64,000 nt of DNA from the NCBI GenBank assembly GCA_902801565.1, contig CADCIX010000009.1, forward strand, positions 1 through 64,000. The letters are read 5' to 3'. The position numbers and the translations under genes were made by a program. Source of the stretch: an uncultured Veillonellaceae bacterium. Its GTDB lineage: Bacteria > Bacillota > Negativicutes > Selenomonadales > Selenomonadaceae. Below, in pieces: positions 27,196 through 33,706 of the stretch. Every line of letters starts with the position of its first letter. Position 1 is the first letter of the stretch. The notes beneath the pieces were generated by a model. The model saw only the letters and a program-made list of their open reading frames with translations, was not told the origin of the DNA and did no database searches.

Positions 27196-28104
27196 ATGAA
27201 AAACATGCAAAAAGCCGCCATGGCCGTGTGCCTGGCCGGGATTCTTTTTTCCGGGTGCGGCAACCAGAAGGCAGCCACCCCTCCCCCTGCAACGAGCGCA
27301 CAGGAAGCGACGGAAAAGGCGCAGGATACAGCGCAGCCTCCAAAGAAAGAAGCCCCGGCACAGCTTCCGTACATCACGGCCACAAAGGATTTCGACAATC
27401 TGCAGTTGGGGGCTGCGGACATTCCCGTATATGATGCGTATACCCTGGCGGAGCGCCGTGCAAATGGCATGACAACTGTCCTGCCGGAGCTCACGCCCTA
27501 TCAGGAAAAGAAGGTGGCCTACCTCACCTTCGATGATGGGCCGGATGACGTGAATACCCCTGCCATCCTCGAAATCCTGCGGCAGGAGAATGTCAAGGCA
27601 ACCTTTTATGTGGTGGGAAGGAGCGCGCTGACCTATCCCGATATCGTAAAGCAGATCTTCCTTGAGGGACACGCCATCGGGAACCACAGCTATGACCACG
27701 ATTACGACAGACTGTATGCTTCCGTGTCCCAATACCTTGAGGAAATGGAACACACCGATGAAATCCTGCACGGAATCATCGGTGTGCGACCCCTGGTCAC
27801 CCGCGCACCCGGCGGGCGCATTGGGCACTTCACGGAAGAATATGTGTCGGCCCTCGCTGCTAATGGATACGTGGAGCATGACTGGAATGTGAGCTCTGCC
27901 GACACGGCTCCCAACCATCCCGTGGCCCAGGACTTCATCGACAACATCGAGGGCCAGGCCACCATGGACAGCCCCATCATATTGATGCACTGCTCCTCCG
28001 GCCATGAGGAGACCGTGAAGGCTCTTCCGGGGATCATCCATGTCCTGAGGGACAGGGGATACGCCTTCGGCGTTGTGACGCCTATGACGCCACAGCCTTG
28101 GTAG
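27196..28104 (+). CDS. Polysaccharide deacetylase lipoprotein
   Basis: NodB-family deacetylase of 302 residues, predicted lipoprotein (lipobox LFSGC) with a proline/alanine-rich tether to about residue 60. NodB motifs are complete: TFDDGPDD (metal and base Asp), NHSYDHDY (two metal His), RAPGG, HDWNVSS and LMHCSSGHEET. It probably removes N-acetyl groups from peptidoglycan or another envelope polysaccharide, on the periplasmic face. GAAGGA precedes the ATG by about six bases. The last 23 bases overlap the convergent ligase gene. Confidence 0.92.
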   Translation: MKNMQKAAMAVCLAGILFSGCGNQKAATPPPATSAQEATEKAQDTAQPPKKEAPAQLPYITATKDFDNLQLGAADIPVYDAYTLAERRANGMTTVLPELTPYQEKKVAYLTFDDGPDDVNTPAILEILRQENVKATFYVVGRSALTYPDIVKQIFLEGHAIGNHSYDHDYDRLYASVSQYLEEMEHTDEILHGIIGVRPLVTRAPGGRIGHFTEEYVSALAANGYVEHDWNVSSADTAPNHPVAQDFIDNIEGQATMDSPIILMHCSSGHEETVKALPGIIHVLRDRGYAFGVVTPMTPQPW

Positions 28105-29431
28105 GTCTCATCCATTCTTCCAGCGCCTTCTGATCAATCTTGCCCCTGTCGTTCAGGGGCAATTCTTTTAGGAAGAATACATGGGATGGGACTTCCACGG
28201 CCTTGAGGTGCCGCCGGAGGGATTGGCGGATCTCCCGTTCCCCTGCATCGGGGTATTTCACCAGAAAGGCTGCCAGGTCGTCTCCCCGCCTGTCATCTTT
28301 GCAACGGAGCACCGCAGCTTCCCGGATGCCGGGCACTTTCAGCAGGGCATTCTCGATCCGGGTGATGCTGATCTTCACGCCACCCTTGTTGATCCATGCT
28401 TCCCTGCGCCCCCGGAAGATCAGTTCGCCCTTTTCGTTAAGGCAGCCCGTGTCCTTGACGGTGAAGGGAATCTCTATGCCGCTCACATGATAGGGCGTAT
28501 CCACATAGACCAGCCCGTCCTTGACGGAAAGGCGGATGCCGGGAAAGGGCTTCCCAAGGTTGGCAGGGTTTCTCTTCGGGTCATCGCAGAGGGCATAGGT
28601 GATGTAGTTCAGCTCGCTGGCGCCGTAGTAAAGAAAGATTTTTGACTGCGCAAAGATATGCATGAGCCTCTCAAGCACATGCTCGGACAAAAGCTGGGAG
28701 CCGGTGAAAATGGAACGCACGCCATTCACCGGCTCCCGAATGGTTTCCACGAGAATCTGGAGCTTTGCCGGAACGAGGTAGATGACGTTCACCTTCGCTT
28801 CCCGAAGAAGGTTCTCCCATTGATGATGGTGCATGCTGCGGCTCGTGATGATGCTGCCGCCCTCGTAGAGCACGGAGAGGAAACTGTTCAGATTTCCCGT
28901 GAAGCTCAGGCTTCCATGGAGAAATATCCTCGTTTCCCCGTCTACCATAAAAATCTCGTTCTGCACGGGAAAGAAATCCGCCCAGCTTCCATAGGTGCGG
29001 TACATAACCTTGGGAACCCCTGTGGAACCGGAGCTCAATACCCCCAGGATATCCGCCTCTATATGCTCCTGCAAGGGCAGCCCTGTGCCACGAAAGGAGA
29101 TGCCGTCTTTCCCCACCGACAGTATCCCCTGCAGGGAGTTTTCGCGCAAAATCTCCGACTGTTCCTGCGCAGAAAGCCCATGGTGCAGAAGAATGGGACG
29201 AAGGTTCCTTTTCTGCAGGGCAAGAAAGGCAGCTGCCTGTCCGAAAAAATCCTCGGCAAGCACCAGAATATTTCCCGAAATATTTAATGGCATCGTAGAT
29301 GCGAATTCATCCACCCGTTGAAGCATCTCTTGATAATTAATGTATTTCTCATCAATCTGGAGAAAGAGTTTTTCCGGGTGCATTCGGGTCTGGCGTTCCA
29401 ATAACGTATAATAATTTCTGATATCCTTCAT
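28082..29431 (-). CDS. AMP-dependent acyl-CoA/ACP synthetase (YhfT-like)
   Basis: ANL-superfamily ligase of 449 residues. The P-loop LGVLSSGSTGVPKVMYRT, the YYGASE motif, the DTGCLNEKGELIFRGRREAWI hinge and the catalytic C-terminal lysine in LPLNDRGKIDQKAL are all present. It activates a carboxylic acid as acyl-AMP and passes it to CoA or a carrier protein. The start ATG overlaps the thiolase stop (ATGA), with GGAG eight bases upstream. Last gene of a hotdog-BioY-thiolase-ligase operon; in Bacillus subtilis yhfU(bioY)-yhfT-yhfS is the comparable BirA-regulated set. The acid used is unknown, a pimelate-type or fatty acid being the natural guess. Confidence 0.88.
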   Translation of the reverse strand: MKDIRNYYTLLERQTRMHPEKLFLQIDEKYINYQEMLQRVDEFASTMPLNISGNILVLAEDFFGQAAAFLALQKRNLRPILLHHGLSAQEQSEILRENSLQGILSVGKDGISFRGTGLPLQEHIEADILGVLSSGSTGVPKVMYRTYGSWADFFPVQNEIFMVDGETRIFLHGSLSFTGNLNSFLSVLYEGGSIITSRSMHHHQWENLLREAKVNVIYLVPAKLQILVETIREPVNGVRSIFTGSQLLSEHVLERLMHIFAQSKIFLYYGASELNYITYALCDDPKRNPANLGKPFPGIRLSVKDGLVYVDTPYHVSGIEIPFTVKDTGCLNEKGELIFRGRREAWINKGGVKISITRIENALLKVPGIREAAVLRCKDDRRGDDLAAFLVKYPDAGEREIRQSLRRHLKAVEVPSHVFFLKELPLNDRGKIDQKALEEWMRPTKAVAS

Positions 29432-30579
29432 CTGCAACTCTCCACTAAAACCGCATTGCCCATACCGCCTGCCCCTGCGATGGACAGAAGCCCCTTTCCC
29501 CCTCCGACCATATCCAAAGAGCGAAGGAGATGCACCAATAGTACCGCGCCTGAAGCACCATAGGGATGGCCATAAGCCAGGGCCCCGCCCAGGCGGTTGT
29601 ACCGATCCGTCAGATGAGGATGGCTTCTCTCGAACAGCACATCGATGACGGCAAAAGCCTCATTGAACTCGATGGCTGCCAGATCCTCCCAGGAAAGCTC
29701 CGCACGCCCAAGGAGGAAATCCGCCGTCTCCATGGCGCCCCGCGGGCTTTCCAAGGGATTGCAGCCCCTGGAGGTGGCAGACAGGATCTGCGCCTTCGGA
29801 ATAGCCCCGGGATGCTGTTCCAGCCAGCGGCCAGACACCAACAAAGCAAACGCCGCGCCATCCATGGTATGGCAGGAGTTCCCTGCCGTCGTCACTCCAT
29901 GGGAACCAAGCAGCGGAGGCATGCGCTCCAGCAGAGCCTCGCTGATGGATGGGCGGGGGCCATCATCCCTTCCGCATTCCCCCATGGGAACCACGGAATC
30001 CGCCAAGAGCTTCGCTTCCTGTGCCGCAAGCGCCCGCCTGTGGCTCAGAAAAGCCCATCGGTCCAGCTCCCCACGGGAAATGCCCTCGGATTTTGCCACT
30101 CGTTCCGCGCCCTGCAGCATGGCCTTTTCAGAGATTTCCAGGGGAGAGAACTGCGCCATGTAATAGGAACCGTCTCCCCGCTCCGTCTCCCTGTATCGGG
30201 GATCTCTCGGGCTGTAGGTCCGCAGGGGCTGGAGGGAGATGCTCTCCGTTCCTCCCGCGATGCAGGAGTCCCAAAGGCCGCTTGCAAGCTGCGCGTATCC
30301 AAGGGAAAGTGCGGCAGCAGCCGATGCGCATTGGGTATCTACCGTGCATGCAGGAATCTCCTCCGGCAGACCCGCCATCAATGCCATGAGCCGTGTGAGG
30401 TTGCCCCCGGTTCCCACGGCATTGCCACCGAGGATGCCATCAACCTGCCGGATATCATGCCTTTCGCAAAGGCATCGGAGGAGTTTCCCGCCGAATTCCT
30501 CCGGCCGCATATGGGATAGCCCCTTGTTTCTGGCAGCCAGGGGCGTCCTCAGGGCATCCAGCACGTAAACGGGCATCAT
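29428..30579 (-). CDS. Thiolase-family protein lacking the C-terminal catalytic cysteine (YhfS-like)
   Basis: Thiolase-fold protein of 383 residues. The nucleophilic cysteine is C84 in VDTQCASAAAALS, and the histidines in FNEAFAVID and LGGALAYGHPYGASGA are kept. The second cysteine, normally in CxGGGxG near the C terminus, is replaced: the stretch reads SIAGAGGMGNAV. It may still form an acyl-enzyme but with altered condensation or cleavage chemistry. Start codons ATG ATG follow the bioY stop by one base, without a strong ribosome site, which suggests translational coupling. In the BirA-type operon. Confidence 0.85.
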   Translation of the reverse strand: MMPVYVLDALRTPLAARNKGLSHMRPEEFGGKLLRCLCERHDIRQVDGILGGNAVGTGGNLTRLMALMAGLPEEIPACTVDTQCASAAAALSLGYAQLASGLWDSCIAGGTESISLQPLRTYSPRDPRYRETERGDGSYYMAQFSPLEISEKAMLQGAERVAKSEGISRGELDRWAFLSHRRALAAQEAKLLADSVVPMGECGRDDGPRPSISEALLERMPPLLGSHGVTTAGNSCHTMDGAAFALLVSGRWLEQHPGAIPKAQILSATSRGCNPLESPRGAMETADFLLGRAELSWEDLAAIEFNEAFAVIDVLFERSHPHLTDRYNRLGGALAYGHPYGASGAVLLVHLLRSLDMVGGGKGLLSIAGAGGMGNAVLVESCR

Positions 30580-30580
30580 G

Positions 30581-31153
30581 TCAGGACCATCTCGCAAGTG
30601 TCTGGTTGACCTTCTTGCCCAGGAAAGCTGCCATGAGAGCCTTCATGATATCCCCCGGAATGAAGGGGAACACCGCCATGACCATGGCCTCCCAAAGACC
30701 AACATCCATCACCAGCACCATGGAGATCAGGCCTCCGAGATAGGTGATGGGAACTCCAAGGAGGATATTCGACAGAGCATAACGGCGAAAATTGATATCG
30801 CTTCCCTTGAACATGCTGACGAGGGGATAAGCGACGAGCCATGCGAAGATAAATCCTCCTGTAGGGCCGAAGAGCTTTCCCGGGCCTGCCGTACCGCCCA
30901 CAAAGACGGGAAGTCCCGCCACGCCCAAAAGTATGTAGACGAGAATCACGAGAAAGGTCTGCCTCGGCGTGAGTACAAAGGCGGTTACGCCCAATGCCAA
31001 TGTCAGGGCCGTGACCATTCCCGGCGTAAAGGGCAAGGGGAAGGAGATATAGGCCGTCACGCAGCAAAACGCCACGCAAATCGCCATCTTTGTCATGTCC
31101 CGGACGGAATCCCCCGTTCCCTGGAGCGAAACACTTTCTTCCTTTACCTGCAT
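30581..31153 (-). CDS. bioY: Biotin transporter substrate-binding subunit BioY
   Basis: S-component of an ECF-type biotin importer, 190 residues, about six membrane helices. The family signature is visible (FPLPFTPGMVTALTLALGVTAFVL and PVFVGGTAGPGKLFGPTGGFIFAWL). It captures biotin in the inner membrane and works alone or with a shared EcfAAT module, which is not in the window. The ATG at 31153 is inside the end of the preceding gene (overlap about 10 bases); another ATG at 31165 is possible. Second gene of the operon controlled by the BirA-like operator. Confidence 0.93.
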   Translation of the reverse strand: MQVKEESVSLQGTGDSVRDMTKMAICVAFCCVTAYISFPLPFTPGMVTALTLALGVTAFVLTPRQTFLVILVYILLGVAGLPVFVGGTAGPGKLFGPTGGFIFAWLVAYPLVSMFKGSDINFRRYALSNILLGVPITYLGGLISMVLVMDVGLWEAMVMAVFPFIPGDIMKALMAAFLGKKVNQTLARWS

Positions 31154-31701
31154 GTTACAACACATCCTTCACATAAGATTTCCCTTTGGGAAAAGATTCG
31201 AAAGTTTTCCTTTGCCATGGGAACCACCCATAGCGGCTCCTCCGCAAAGGCGGGATGGCGGAAGCGCAGCTGCATTCTGCCGCATCTGCGGAAGGCGGCA
31301 TCCCCCAGCAATCGTTCCAGCAACAGAAGCCCCGGCACGATGGGGTGCGCACCCTGATGCAAGGGATTCCTGTCCCCCGCCTTTTCCACGAACTCCGAGA
31401 TTTCGCTTTTAGAAAACACATGCCAAACGGCATGTTCCTTGATCTCCTCCGAAATCCCGAACCCGTTCCCCATTACAGACGCCGGACTCTGCTGCCCCGA
31501 CTGACGCAGCAGCATGGTAACCTTCAGTGTTTCCCCACTGCCCCGCACCTCCACCACAAGCACCCCATGACGATCCGACAGGACATGCAGGGGCTCCCTG
31601 CTGCCTTCCGCCAGATCCCTGCGCCAAAGAAGCTCCGCAATCTCCGCCCCCATATACCGTTCTCCCTTGAGGCCCGACAGCTCTCGTGCCAGTTCAAGCA
31701 A
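31144..31701 (-). CDS. MaoC-like hotdog dehydratase, first gene of the biotin operon
   Basis: Protein of 185 residues. The second half carries a MaoC-type hydratase motif, FSKSEISEFVEKAGDRNPLH followed by HPIVPGLLLLERLL, with the expected Asp/His pair at about D110 and H115; the first half has no family I recognise. Such enzymes hydrate or dehydrate enoyl/3-hydroxyacyl thioesters. The start is set at a TTG (31701) because GGAGGT precedes it by six bases, while the upstream TTG at 31737 has none. It overlaps bioY. Together with thiolase and ligase it could process an acyl chain. Confidence 0.7.
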   Translation of the reverse strand: MLELARELSGLKGERYMGAEIAELLWRRDLAEGSREPLHVLSDRHGVLVVEVRGSGETLKVTMLLRQSGQQSPASVMGNGFGISEEIKEHAVWHVFSKSEISEFVEKAGDRNPLHQGAHPIVPGLLLLERLLGDAAFRRCGRMQLRFRHPAFAEEPLWVVPMAKENFRIFSQREILCEGCVVTCR

Positions 31702-31756: not shown

Positions 31757-31785
31757 ATTATAAGGAAAAACCAGGACAATGTCAA
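31757..31785 (-). promoter_or_regulatory. Consensus promoter of the biotin-type operon
   Basis: Minus strand: TTGACA (31785-31780), 17-base spacer, TATAAT (31762-31757). Both hexamers are perfect. The -35 box is inside the BirA-like operator. Confidence 0.85.
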
Positions 31786-31809
31786 CCAATAGATTGTTCA
31801 TGGTTAACG
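31780..31809. promoter_or_regulatory. BirA-type operator
   Basis: TGTCAACC (31780-31787), 14 bases, GGTTAACG (31802-31809). Each half differs from the BirA half-site (TGTTAACC / GGTTAACA) at one position, and the 14-base spacing is within the known range. It covers the -35 box of the operon promoter, as expected for repression by biotin-bound BirA. Confidence 0.75.
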
Positions 31810-31817
31810 ATAATAGA

Positions 31818-31866
31818 ATTTTACCATACAGGCAACCTTGCAAACAGGTTTCCTGTATGGTAAAAT
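31818..31866 (-). terminator. Hairpin at the end of the SCIFF maturase transcript
   Basis: Perfect 15-base arms ATTTTACCATACAGG (31818-31832) and CCTGTATGGTAAAAT (31852-31866). It separates the SCIFF locus from the biotin-operon promoter. A second GC-rich stem lies at 31925-31956 (GCCCGCCT / AGGCGGGC). Confidence 0.65.
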
Positions 31867-31965: not shown

Positions 31966-33333
31966 TTAGTCTGCTTCCATGCTCTCCAATGCCAGTAGAG
32001 ACTGCACCAGGATAGCGCATTCCAGGCGTTTCTTCTGGATTTCGCAGCCCACCTCGTAGGGCTTCCTGATATCATCGTGGAAGAGATCCGCGTTCGCATG
32101 GCAGCCGCCGCTGCAGAAGAACCTCGCCCAGCAGTCGCGGCATTTTTCCTTGTTCAATACATGGGACTCGCGGAAATACCGGGGCAGATCCTTGTCCTGC
32201 ACGCCGTCGTAGACATTGCCCAGCTTGTACCGGCCACGTCCCACGAACTGATGACAGGGATAGAGGTCGCCGTTCTCCGCCACGGCATAGTACTCATGCC
32301 CCGCACCGCAGCCTGCCAAACGCTTGGCCACGCAGGGGCCGTTGGAGAGATCCATGTTGAAATGGAAGAAGAAGAAATCCTTCCCCTCCCGATGGCGTTT
32401 CAAATAGGTCTTCGTGAGACGATCATACTCCTCGAAGATGCGCGGCAGATCCTCCTCGGTGAAACCGAGGGGATTGTCCTTGAGCACCACGGGCTCCACG
32501 GAAAGGATATCGAAGCCTGCATCATTCATCGCAAGAACGTCCTCGGTGAAATCCATGTTCTCCTTCGTATAGGTTCCCCGCATGTAATAATTCTTTCCAT
32601 CACGGGAATCCACGAGTTTCCTGAAATTTTTGATCACGCGGTCATAACTGCCATTCCCGGCCACGTCCGGACGCATCCTGTCATGGACTTCCTTGCGCCC
32701 GTCCACGCTCAGGACCACGGAAATGTTGTTGTCATTGAGCCACTGGATGATGCTGTCCTTCAGGAGAACCCCGTTGGTGGTGAGGGTGAGCTTGAAGGCC
32801 TTTCCCGTTTCCTTCTCCCTCTGGCGCACATATTCCGTAACGGCCTTGACCGTTTCCATGTTCATGAGGGGCTCCCCGCCGAAGAAGTCGATCTCACAGT
32901 GCTTCCGCGGGCCGCAATGGGCAATGAGATAGTCCACTGCCGCCCGTCCCACCTCGGGACTCATGACGGCACGCTCGCCACCATAGCTGCCCCCGTCGCC
33001 GAAGCAATAGCGGCAGCGGAGATTGCAGTCCTGTGCCACCATGAGGCAAAGGGATTTCACAAGCCCTGTCTGCTTAAAGGTCGGCGGAACATCGATGTCC
33101 GGTGCGAAAAGCTGCCCTGCATCCATAAGGGAATGAAGCTCCCCAAGAGCCTCCGAAAGCTCCTTTTCGGAATATTCCCTCCGAAGGGACGCCACTACCT
33201 CCTCATCGTTGCCCCCTGTGAAGATGTCCATCATATCGTAAATCATCCTGTCGATGACATGCACCGCGCCGCTGTTGATATCCAGCAGGATATAGGTATC
33301 GCCCTGCCTAAACTTGTGAATCCTGTCTTTCAT
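31966..33333 (-). CDS. scfB: Radical-SAM SCIFF peptide maturase
   Basis: Radical SAM/SPASM enzyme of 455 residues that forms thioether links on the SCIFF peptide encoded upstream. The SAM-cluster motif is CNLRCRYCFGDGG; the SPASM cysteines are in CGAGHEYYAVAENGDLYPC and in CRDCWARFFCSGGC. The N terminus (IHKFRQGDTYILLDINSGAV) resembles the peptide-recognition part of such maturases. GGAG precedes the ATG at 33333. About 165 bases and a terminator hairpin separate it from the precursor gene, as expected when the peptide is made in excess over the enzyme. Confidence 0.95.
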   Translation of the reverse strand: MKDRIHKFRQGDTYILLDINSGAVHVIDRMIYDMMDIFTGGNDEEVVASLRREYSEKELSEALGELHSLMDAGQLFAPDIDVPPTFKQTGLVKSLCLMVAQDCNLRCRYCFGDGGSYGGERAVMSPEVGRAAVDYLIAHCGPRKHCEIDFFGGEPLMNMETVKAVTEYVRQREKETGKAFKLTLTTNGVLLKDSIIQWLNDNNISVVLSVDGRKEVHDRMRPDVAGNGSYDRVIKNFRKLVDSRDGKNYYMRGTYTKENMDFTEDVLAMNDAGFDILSVEPVVLKDNPLGFTEEDLPRIFEEYDRLTKTYLKRHREGKDFFFFHFNMDLSNGPCVAKRLAGCGAGHEYYAVAENGDLYPCHQFVGRGRYKLGNVYDGVQDKDLPRYFRESHVLNKEKCRDCWARFFCSGGCHANADLFHDDIRKPYEVGCEIQKKRLECAILVQSLLALESMEAD

Positions 33334-33500: not shown

Positions 33501-33638
33501 TTACTTCTCGCAAACCTGGTTGCCGACGGTGCAAGATGTCTTGCACGCGGACTGGCAGGAGGCCTGACACTCCCCGCAACCTCCCGTCTTCAACGTCTTC
33601 TGCATGGTGGGTTTGTTTACTGTGACAATGTGTTTCAT
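33501..33638 (-). CDS. scfA: SCIFF six-cysteine ranthipeptide precursor
   Basis: Peptide of exactly 45 residues with six cysteines in its C-terminal half (GGCGECQASCQSACKTSC, then the last in QVCEK), the defining pattern of SCIFF (six cysteines in forty-five residues). It is the substrate of the radical-SAM maturase directly downstream. N-terminal leader begins MKHIVTVNKPTMQKTLKTGG. The ATG at 33638 has GAGGA upstream. SCIFF is almost universal in Clostridia; its function may be in quorum sensing or stress, not settled. Confidence 0.95.
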   Translation of the reverse strand: MKHIVTVNKPTMQKTLKTGGCGECQASCQSACKTSCTVGNQVCEK

Positions 33639-33677
33639 TTCCAAATCCTCCTCGTTCCGATAAAAAAGTGTATTTTG

Positions 33678-33706
33678 ATTATACCACCTCAAGGGGGAAC
33701 ATGCAA
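33678..33706 (-). promoter_or_regulatory. Promoter of the SCIFF precursor
   Basis: Minus strand TTGCAT (33706-33701), 17-base spacer, extended -10 TGGTATAAT (TATAAT at 33683-33678). Confidence 0.7.

Follow-up and report, generated by a model that had tools for sequence, protein, structure and literature searches.

A predicted BirA-controlled acyl-CoA operon of Negativicutes related to yhfUTS and vraABCP, with a VraP-type hydratase within its first gene

The Bacillus subtilis yhfUTS genes and the staphylococcal vraA-vraB-vraC-vraP genes are the closest described systems to the operon examined here. BirA control has been published for yhfUTS in B. subtilis (PMC4016012) and for bioY and yhfS-yhfT in Staphylococcus aureus (PMC6391492). 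In staphylococci, the same ligase, thiolase and hydratase are encoded by vraA-vraB-vraC-vraP, and loss of vraCP alters the envelope (PMC10620731). The yhfUTS and vraAB genes are long-standing, functionally unassigned members of the BirA regulon in two model bacteria, and our literature search found no paper assigning one to the yhfUTS/vraABCP enzymes. Here, we analyzed a four-gene operon in a 64,000-nucleotide stretch of DNA from an uncultured Veillonellaceae bacterium, referred to as the window. A first-pass annotation of the window had stated that this arrangement has no described function; no function is indeed on record, but the staphylococcal vraABCP set and the BirA control were already published (PMC10620731, PMC4016012, PMC6391492). 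Judged from its sequence, we consider the operon to be the Negativicutes version of the biotin-repressed yhfUTS/vraABCP set, in which the VraP-type hydratase within the first gene would be a new form. At the family level, we are highly confident in describing it as a BirA-repressed, vitamin-uptake-linked acyl-CoA module that is orthologous to yhfUTS/vraABCP and induced when biotin is scarce.

The operon spans 28082-31701 on the minus strand in the order hotdog-BioY-thiolase-ligase, and adjoining genes overlap by 10-22 bp. All four genes were confirmed at the places given in the first-pass annotation, and the features are as follows (aa, amino acids; ECF, energy-coupling factor).

31144-31701, minus strand: hotdog gene, first in the operon (185 aa, TTG start)
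30581-31165, minus strand: BioY-family ECF S-component gene (PF02632, E 3.9e-31)
29428-30597, minus strand: thiolase gene (TIGR01930, 301 bits, above its cut-off)
28082-29437, minus strand: AMP-forming acyl-CoA ligase gene of the YhfT/VraA type (PF00501 and PF13193)
31757-31785, minus strand: sigma-70 promoter TTGACA-17-TATAAT (12/12 consensus matches), preceding the hotdog gene
31780-31809, minus strand: predicted BirA-type operator, palindrome CGTTAACC-N14-GGTTGACA, overlapping the promoter -35

To survey the class, 300 Negativicutes genomes were searched with the hotdog protein, and about 15 kb was read around each match. Hotdog relatives were found in 101 of the 300 genomes; the thiolase and ligase genes adjoin the hotdog gene in about 80 of the approximately 100 loci read, and 70 of these also have BioY. 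The genes occur as hotdog-BioY-thiolase-ligase, BioY-ligase-hotdog-thiolase, BioY-hotdog-thiolase-ligase, or hotdog-thiolase-ligase without BioY, and the flanking genes vary between lineages. The first-pass annotation had named as a refuting case that the four genes are neighbors only in this strain, which is clearly false given about 80 linked loci with differing flanks; chance is a poor explanation of the linkage. Hotdog genes of this family also occur as orphans, with no adjoining BioY, thiolase or ligase gene and no BirA box (L039-L042, L072, L083, L089 and L094); the nearest relatives of the window hotdog protein are among them, in L039-L042. In Avacidaminococcus (L147, 8505-8924), a FabA-like dehydratase takes the place of the VraP type as hotdog partner of BioY-thiolase-ligase; on this weak, sub-cut-off match, hotdogs may have been recruited to the operon repeatedly.

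The 2.7 Mb genome has two matches with two mismatches to the consensus operator, namely the BirA-type box of the window and one at C44. The window box contains GGTTGAC, which a strict right half-site search missed, and the search finally used was a mismatch search in place of the strict pattern. A group II BirA with a winged helix is present in the host genome, and together with the conserved box it argues for the biotin control that the first-pass annotation had proposed. Boxes scoring at least 13/18 were counted as BirA-like, with Markov-shuffled sequences as controls. Such boxes lie upstream of 51/70 BioY-bearing Negativicutes operons, compared with 5.4% of the controls, and were found in 2/10 operons without BioY and at 1/13 orphan hotdog genes. 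The box follows the presence of BioY; regulation therefore goes with the transporter, and both may be missing where the ligase-thiolase-hotdog trio occurs. Since eight of the ten BioY-less operons also lack the box, the trio can apparently serve outside biotin control. A perfect 14-bp inverted repeat, TTTTACCATACAGG-N19-CCTGTATGGTAAAA, is located at 31819-31865, just upstream of the BirA box, and is possibly a second operator or a terminator.

The window thiolase keeps C90, N312 and H344, but canonical Cys378 is replaced by Ala, and an invariant cysteine, C242, occupies the position of canonical Ser247. The same holds for 81/81 Negativicutes relatives, which have Ala or Pro at Cys378. Bacilli and rhizobial members of the set have Gly at 378 and Cys at 247, Gly or Ala is found at 378 in other phyla, and the exceptions without a cysteine at 247 are L203, L143 and L256. 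Compared with canonical thiolases (EC 2.3.1.9/16), the Cys89 nucleophile, the Asn of NEAF and the His of GHP are present, and Cys378 of CxG is missing. In a maximum-likelihood tree with 44 other thiolases, all 48 linked thiolases grouped together with 100/100 branch support, and the linked thiolases across phyla thus form one clade. The AlphaFold2 model of the window thiolase (predicted local distance difference test, pLDDT, 93.7) has the thiolase fold. Ser247 lines the active-site cavity in the Zoogloea thiolase (PMC7337054), so a cysteine at this position would be placed to act as a base. As far as we could find, a cysteine-relocated thiolase clade across phyla has not been described; among the matches listed in the thiolase search of genome contigs, most were ordinary thiolases, and its spread outside the sampled groups is a lower bound. 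A lone thiolase of the same clade, with 57% identity to the window thiolase, occurs in a rumen Selenomonadaceae metagenome-assembled genome (L146, 5992-7137), two genes downstream of a 4HBT-like gene and with no ligase, BioY or operon-type hotdog gene nearby.

The best NCBIfam match of the window ligase is PRK07638/YhfT, at 147 bits and under the cut-off of 518. It has the signature R147-x3-S151-W152, whose R and W are present in 110/110 linked ligases; in the other acyl-CoA ligases compared, R was found in 1/16 and W in 0/16. The ligase model (pLDDT 83) is nearest by fold to aryl- and succinylbenzoate-activating enzymes, which are too distant to name the substrate.

No Pfam or NCBIfam match was obtained for the 185-aa protein of the first gene. 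Its C-terminal half is predicted to be a MaoC/VraP-type hotdog with the motif D110-x-N112-P-x-H115, in which D110 and N112 are conserved in 100/100 relatives and H115 in 99%, and the family profile matches the (R)-enoyl-CoA hydratase 1iq6 and the dehydratase 3ir3. The catalytic motif and these profile matches bear out the hotdog hydratase proposed in the first annotation. Aligned with the 87-aa family at the position of staphylococcal VraP, the hotdog half gave an hhalign probability of 98.4 (E 1.1e-14), and the two are most probably homologous. In the N-terminal half (about 90 aa), no similarity to the VraC family was detected (hhalign probability 0.4). VraC and the Bacilli FAS1_DH-type hotdog were both rejected as identities of this half, with hhalign probabilities below 1.

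The window BioY matches 4dve, the Lactococcus lactis BioY (E 1.3e-9), but its loop reads GGTAGPGK, compared with GG[NR]GG in biotin-type BioY. The Negativicutes S-components share a conserved loop, GGTxG...K, unlike both the biotin type and the PanU type. Genetics has shown B. subtilis YhfU to be PanU, an S-component for pantothenate (PMC11487621), so membership of the BioY family does not reveal the cargo. The window BioY may carry biotin or pantothenate, and biotin cannot simply be assumed.

The host genome is 99.78% complete. In it, bioB was not found (best 111 bits vs a cut-off of 225), bioF gave no match at 1e-20, and for bioA there was no match above the cut-off, the aminotransferases being only sub-cut-off. 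By these searches, the host bacterium is predicted to be unable to make biotin. Pimelate could not become biotin in such a host, which rules out pimelate supply as the main role there and counts against the pimelate-like role raised in the first annotation. Of 109 sampled genomes of the host family, 12 are without bioB. A complete hotdog-thiolase-ligase set was found in 6/12 bioB-less and 26/97 bioB-bearing genomes; enrichment in the former was rejected (Fisher p 0.18), and the claim is therefore limited to the operon being not depleted in bioB-less genomes. In Bacilli, bioB is missing from 5/27 carriers of the operon, and the thiolases of three of these group in a single clade. Between bioB-less genomes, omega for every operon gene was 0.02-0.15 in Negativicutes and 0.06-0.24 in the closest Bacilli pair. 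The operons of bioB-less genomes are under purifying selection, and supplying biotin synthesis is not the only reason for keeping the operon. No biotinyl domain was found in the 464 kb of the host genome scanned (17% of the genome).

Judging by sequence, orthologous sets are present in Bacilli (yhfUTS and vraABCP types) and Alphaproteobacteria, and probably in an actinomycete. The Bacilli arrangements are BioY-ligase-thiolase, the B. subtilis type, or the same followed by two small hotdog genes (FAS1_DH_region and MaoC); the actinomycete Microbispora (L203) has BioY-ligase-thiolase. On alphaproteobacterial plasmids, ligase-thiolase follows EcfA-EcfT-BioY in Sinorhizobium meliloti pSymB, Paracoccus and Azospirillum, and faces nitroreductase-BioY-EcfT-EcfA in Pseudosulfitobacter, Alloyangia and Thioclava. 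Further members of these sets are either a conserved nitroreductase or a thioesterase together with an MDR-type dehydrogenase. On the Rhodobacterales plasmids (L143, L317, L319, L320 and L321), the gene of the nitroreductase family converges with ligase-thiolase and in most cases stands at the head of the BioY-Ecf genes; it is a candidate redox partner of the module. On the Pseudosulfitobacter plasmid (L143, 376-5655), nadA-nadB-nadC-panB-panC lies directly upstream of ligase-thiolase, opposite BioY-EcfT-EcfA, and this stretch is a mobile vitamin/cofactor island. A conserved panBC linkage was rejected, as it was seen in Pseudosulfitobacter only and is absent in Alloyangia, Paracoccus and Thioclava.

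As the purpose of the operon, we tentatively rank first a coenzyme A (CoA)-based acyl route that is driven by acetyl-CoA and would operate when biotin-dependent carboxylation fails. At scarce biotin, the BirA-repressed operon would be switched on, and BioY would import a vitamin needed under this condition: biotin, or pantothenate for CoA if it resembles B. subtilis YhfU. The ligase would convert a short- or medium-chain carboxylic acid to its CoA ester, the thiolase would add or remove acetyl units without malonyl-CoA, with Cys242 standing in for Cys378, and the hotdog protein would interconvert 3-hydroxyacyl-CoA and 2-enoyl-CoA, the reductases being supplied by general metabolism. Acyl chains would thereby be kept supplied while biotin-dependent carboxylation fails. 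The ranking draws on the enzymes, the pantothenate transporter, the persistence of the set in auxotrophs, the operons without BioY and the box, the envelope change on loss of vraCP (PMC10620731), and the failure of acetyl-CoA carboxylase at low biotin; in S. aureus, biotin limitation hits this carboxylase hardest (PMC12642757). Several points weigh against this acyl route. It would require a Claisen condensation by a thiolase that has Cys242 rather than Cys378, and the Negativicutes operons read contain neither a reductase nor a dehydrogenase. The R-x3-S-W motif, specific to the linked ligases, hints at one particular substrate, not at fatty acids in general, and the alphaproteobacterial sets beside complete ECF biotin-type transporters fit an imported cargo better than a role in lipid metabolism. 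In the class, most carriers without bioB have congeners that bear it, so retention of the operon may reflect recent, possibly repeated, loss of bioB. In the host itself, which keeps BirA, the biotin carboxylase gene accC (TIGR00514) was not found at E 1e-30, which makes the carboxylase-bypass logic less certain there.

Salvage of biotin vitamers is a rather doubtful alternative to the acyl route. The S-component would import biotin-like acids with a side chain shortened by beta-oxidation (such as bisnorbiotin), the ligase would activate them, and the thiolase and hotdog protein, with borrowed reductases, would rebuild the valerate side chain before biotin is released. This would account for the transporter-ligase-thiolase linkage in Negativicutes, Bacilli, Alphaproteobacteria and one actinomycete, including EcfA-EcfT-BioY-ligase-thiolase in Paracoccus and Azospirillum, for the polar ligase motif specific to the clade, and for the retention of the set in bioB-less genomes; the alphaproteobacterial nitroreductase, or the thioesterase with the MDR-type dehydrogenase, could give the redox and release steps. 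However, pantothenate is the cargo of B. subtilis YhfU (PMC11487621), the GG[NR]GG motif is missing from the Negativicutes BioY, 10/80 class operons are without BioY and in most cases also without a BirA box, and we found no published biochemistry. We regard as unlikely the wider proposal of a cross-phylum vitamin-salvage module, in which the second catalytic cysteine of the thiolase has moved from 378 to 247 and side chains of imported biotin vitamers are rebuilt or trimmed, making damaged biotin usable for biotin auxotrophs. Supply of pimelate or pimeloyl-CoA seems improbable. Here the ligase would form glutaryl-CoA, the thiolase would condense it with acetyl-CoA, and the hotdog protein would dehydrate the reduced product on the way to pimeloyl-CoA for BioF. 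This chemistry parallels that of BioZ, the operon is predicted to be under BirA regulation, most carriers have bioB (26/32 family genomes with the operon and 22/27 Bacilli), and a review describes the source of pimelate for BioW as unknown (PMC11089781); against it stand the missing biotin genes of the host, the purifying selection on the set in three related bioB-less Bacilli genomes, and the finding of no bio biosynthetic gene adjoining the operon in the loci read. Equally improbable is support of CoA or pantothenate supply, in which the S-component imports pantothenate, the enzymes serve CoA or acyl-CoA homeostasis, and the link to BirA is either incidental or a reflection of the demand for CoA. 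The genetic identification of YhfU as PanU (PMC11487621) and the panB-panC genes directly upstream of ligase-thiolase in Pseudosulfitobacter fit this explanation, but Alloyangia, Paracoccus and Thioclava have no panBC neighborhood, and the BirA box tracks the presence of BioY in Negativicutes.

In summary, three results narrow the question: the module is present in bacteria that do not make biotin, its thiolases form one cysteine-relocated clade, and ligase-thiolase follows BioY-type transporters in four phyla. Acyl-CoA or vitamin-salvage chemistry of a new kind is possible.

Regarding the surroundings of the operon in the window, the ligase gene, which is the last in the operon, is tail-to-tail with a plus-strand polysaccharide deacetylase gene. 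Directly upstream of the operon is a ranthipeptide pair, consisting of a SCIFF-like Cys-rich peptide gene at 33501-33692 on the minus strand (product ending ...GGCGECQASCQSACKTSCTVGNQVCEK) followed by a radical SAM maturase gene at 31966-33333 on the minus strand (TIGR03974, 614 bits vs a cut-off of 425).

Compared with known systems, the first gene shares the D-x-N-P-x-H motif and the hotdog profile with MaoC/PhaJ (R)-specific enoyl-CoA hydratases and with tandem hotdog dehydratases such as HtdX, but it has a short lid loop and an N-terminal half without a detectable family. The thiolase shares the fold, the nucleophilic Cys, and the NEAF and GHP motifs with biosynthetic and degradative thiolases (Zoogloea PhaA, PcaF), whereas the linked clade has Ala or Gly instead of Cys378 and Cys instead of Ser247. 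The BioMNY-type ECF biotin loci of Alphaproteobacteria likewise have EcfA/T-BioY adjoining a ligase and a thiolase without Cys378; there, however, the hotdog partner is a 4HBT thioesterase or is absent, and a nitroreductase is added in Rhodobacterales. Staphylococcal vraA-vraB-vraC-vraP has the ligase and thiolase followed by VraC- and VraP-sized genes, and the Staphylococcus-like loci were identified as vraABCP from the order and sizes of their genes and from what has been published on the cluster (PMC10620731). BioY does not adjoin the staphylococcal loci read, and the two small genes are usually separate there, although in one Staphylococcus-like genome (L277) they are fused into a 228-aa protein.

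B. subtilis yhfUTS shares the S-component, ligase, thiolase and BirA operator with the window (PMC4016012). It differs in gene order, in the pantothenate specificity of YhfU, and in having no hotdog gene (B. subtilis-type loci L256-L260), and the window ligase and thiolase score under the PRK07638 and PRK06690 cut-offs. Nevertheless, the B. subtilis-type Bacilli loci, including over-cut-off PRK07638 and PRK06690 members, have the same thiolase clade and the same ligase motif, and the likeness to yhfUTS claimed in the first-pass annotation is upheld. A VraC partner was not recognized in the N-terminal half of the hotdog protein, and VraC, taken by size and position only, is not defining for yhfUTS. 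The features typical of yhfUTS/vraABCP that we found in the window are the one-operon set, the predicted operator, a thiolase of the clade without Cys378, the R-x3-S-W ligase, and the VraP-type hydratase.

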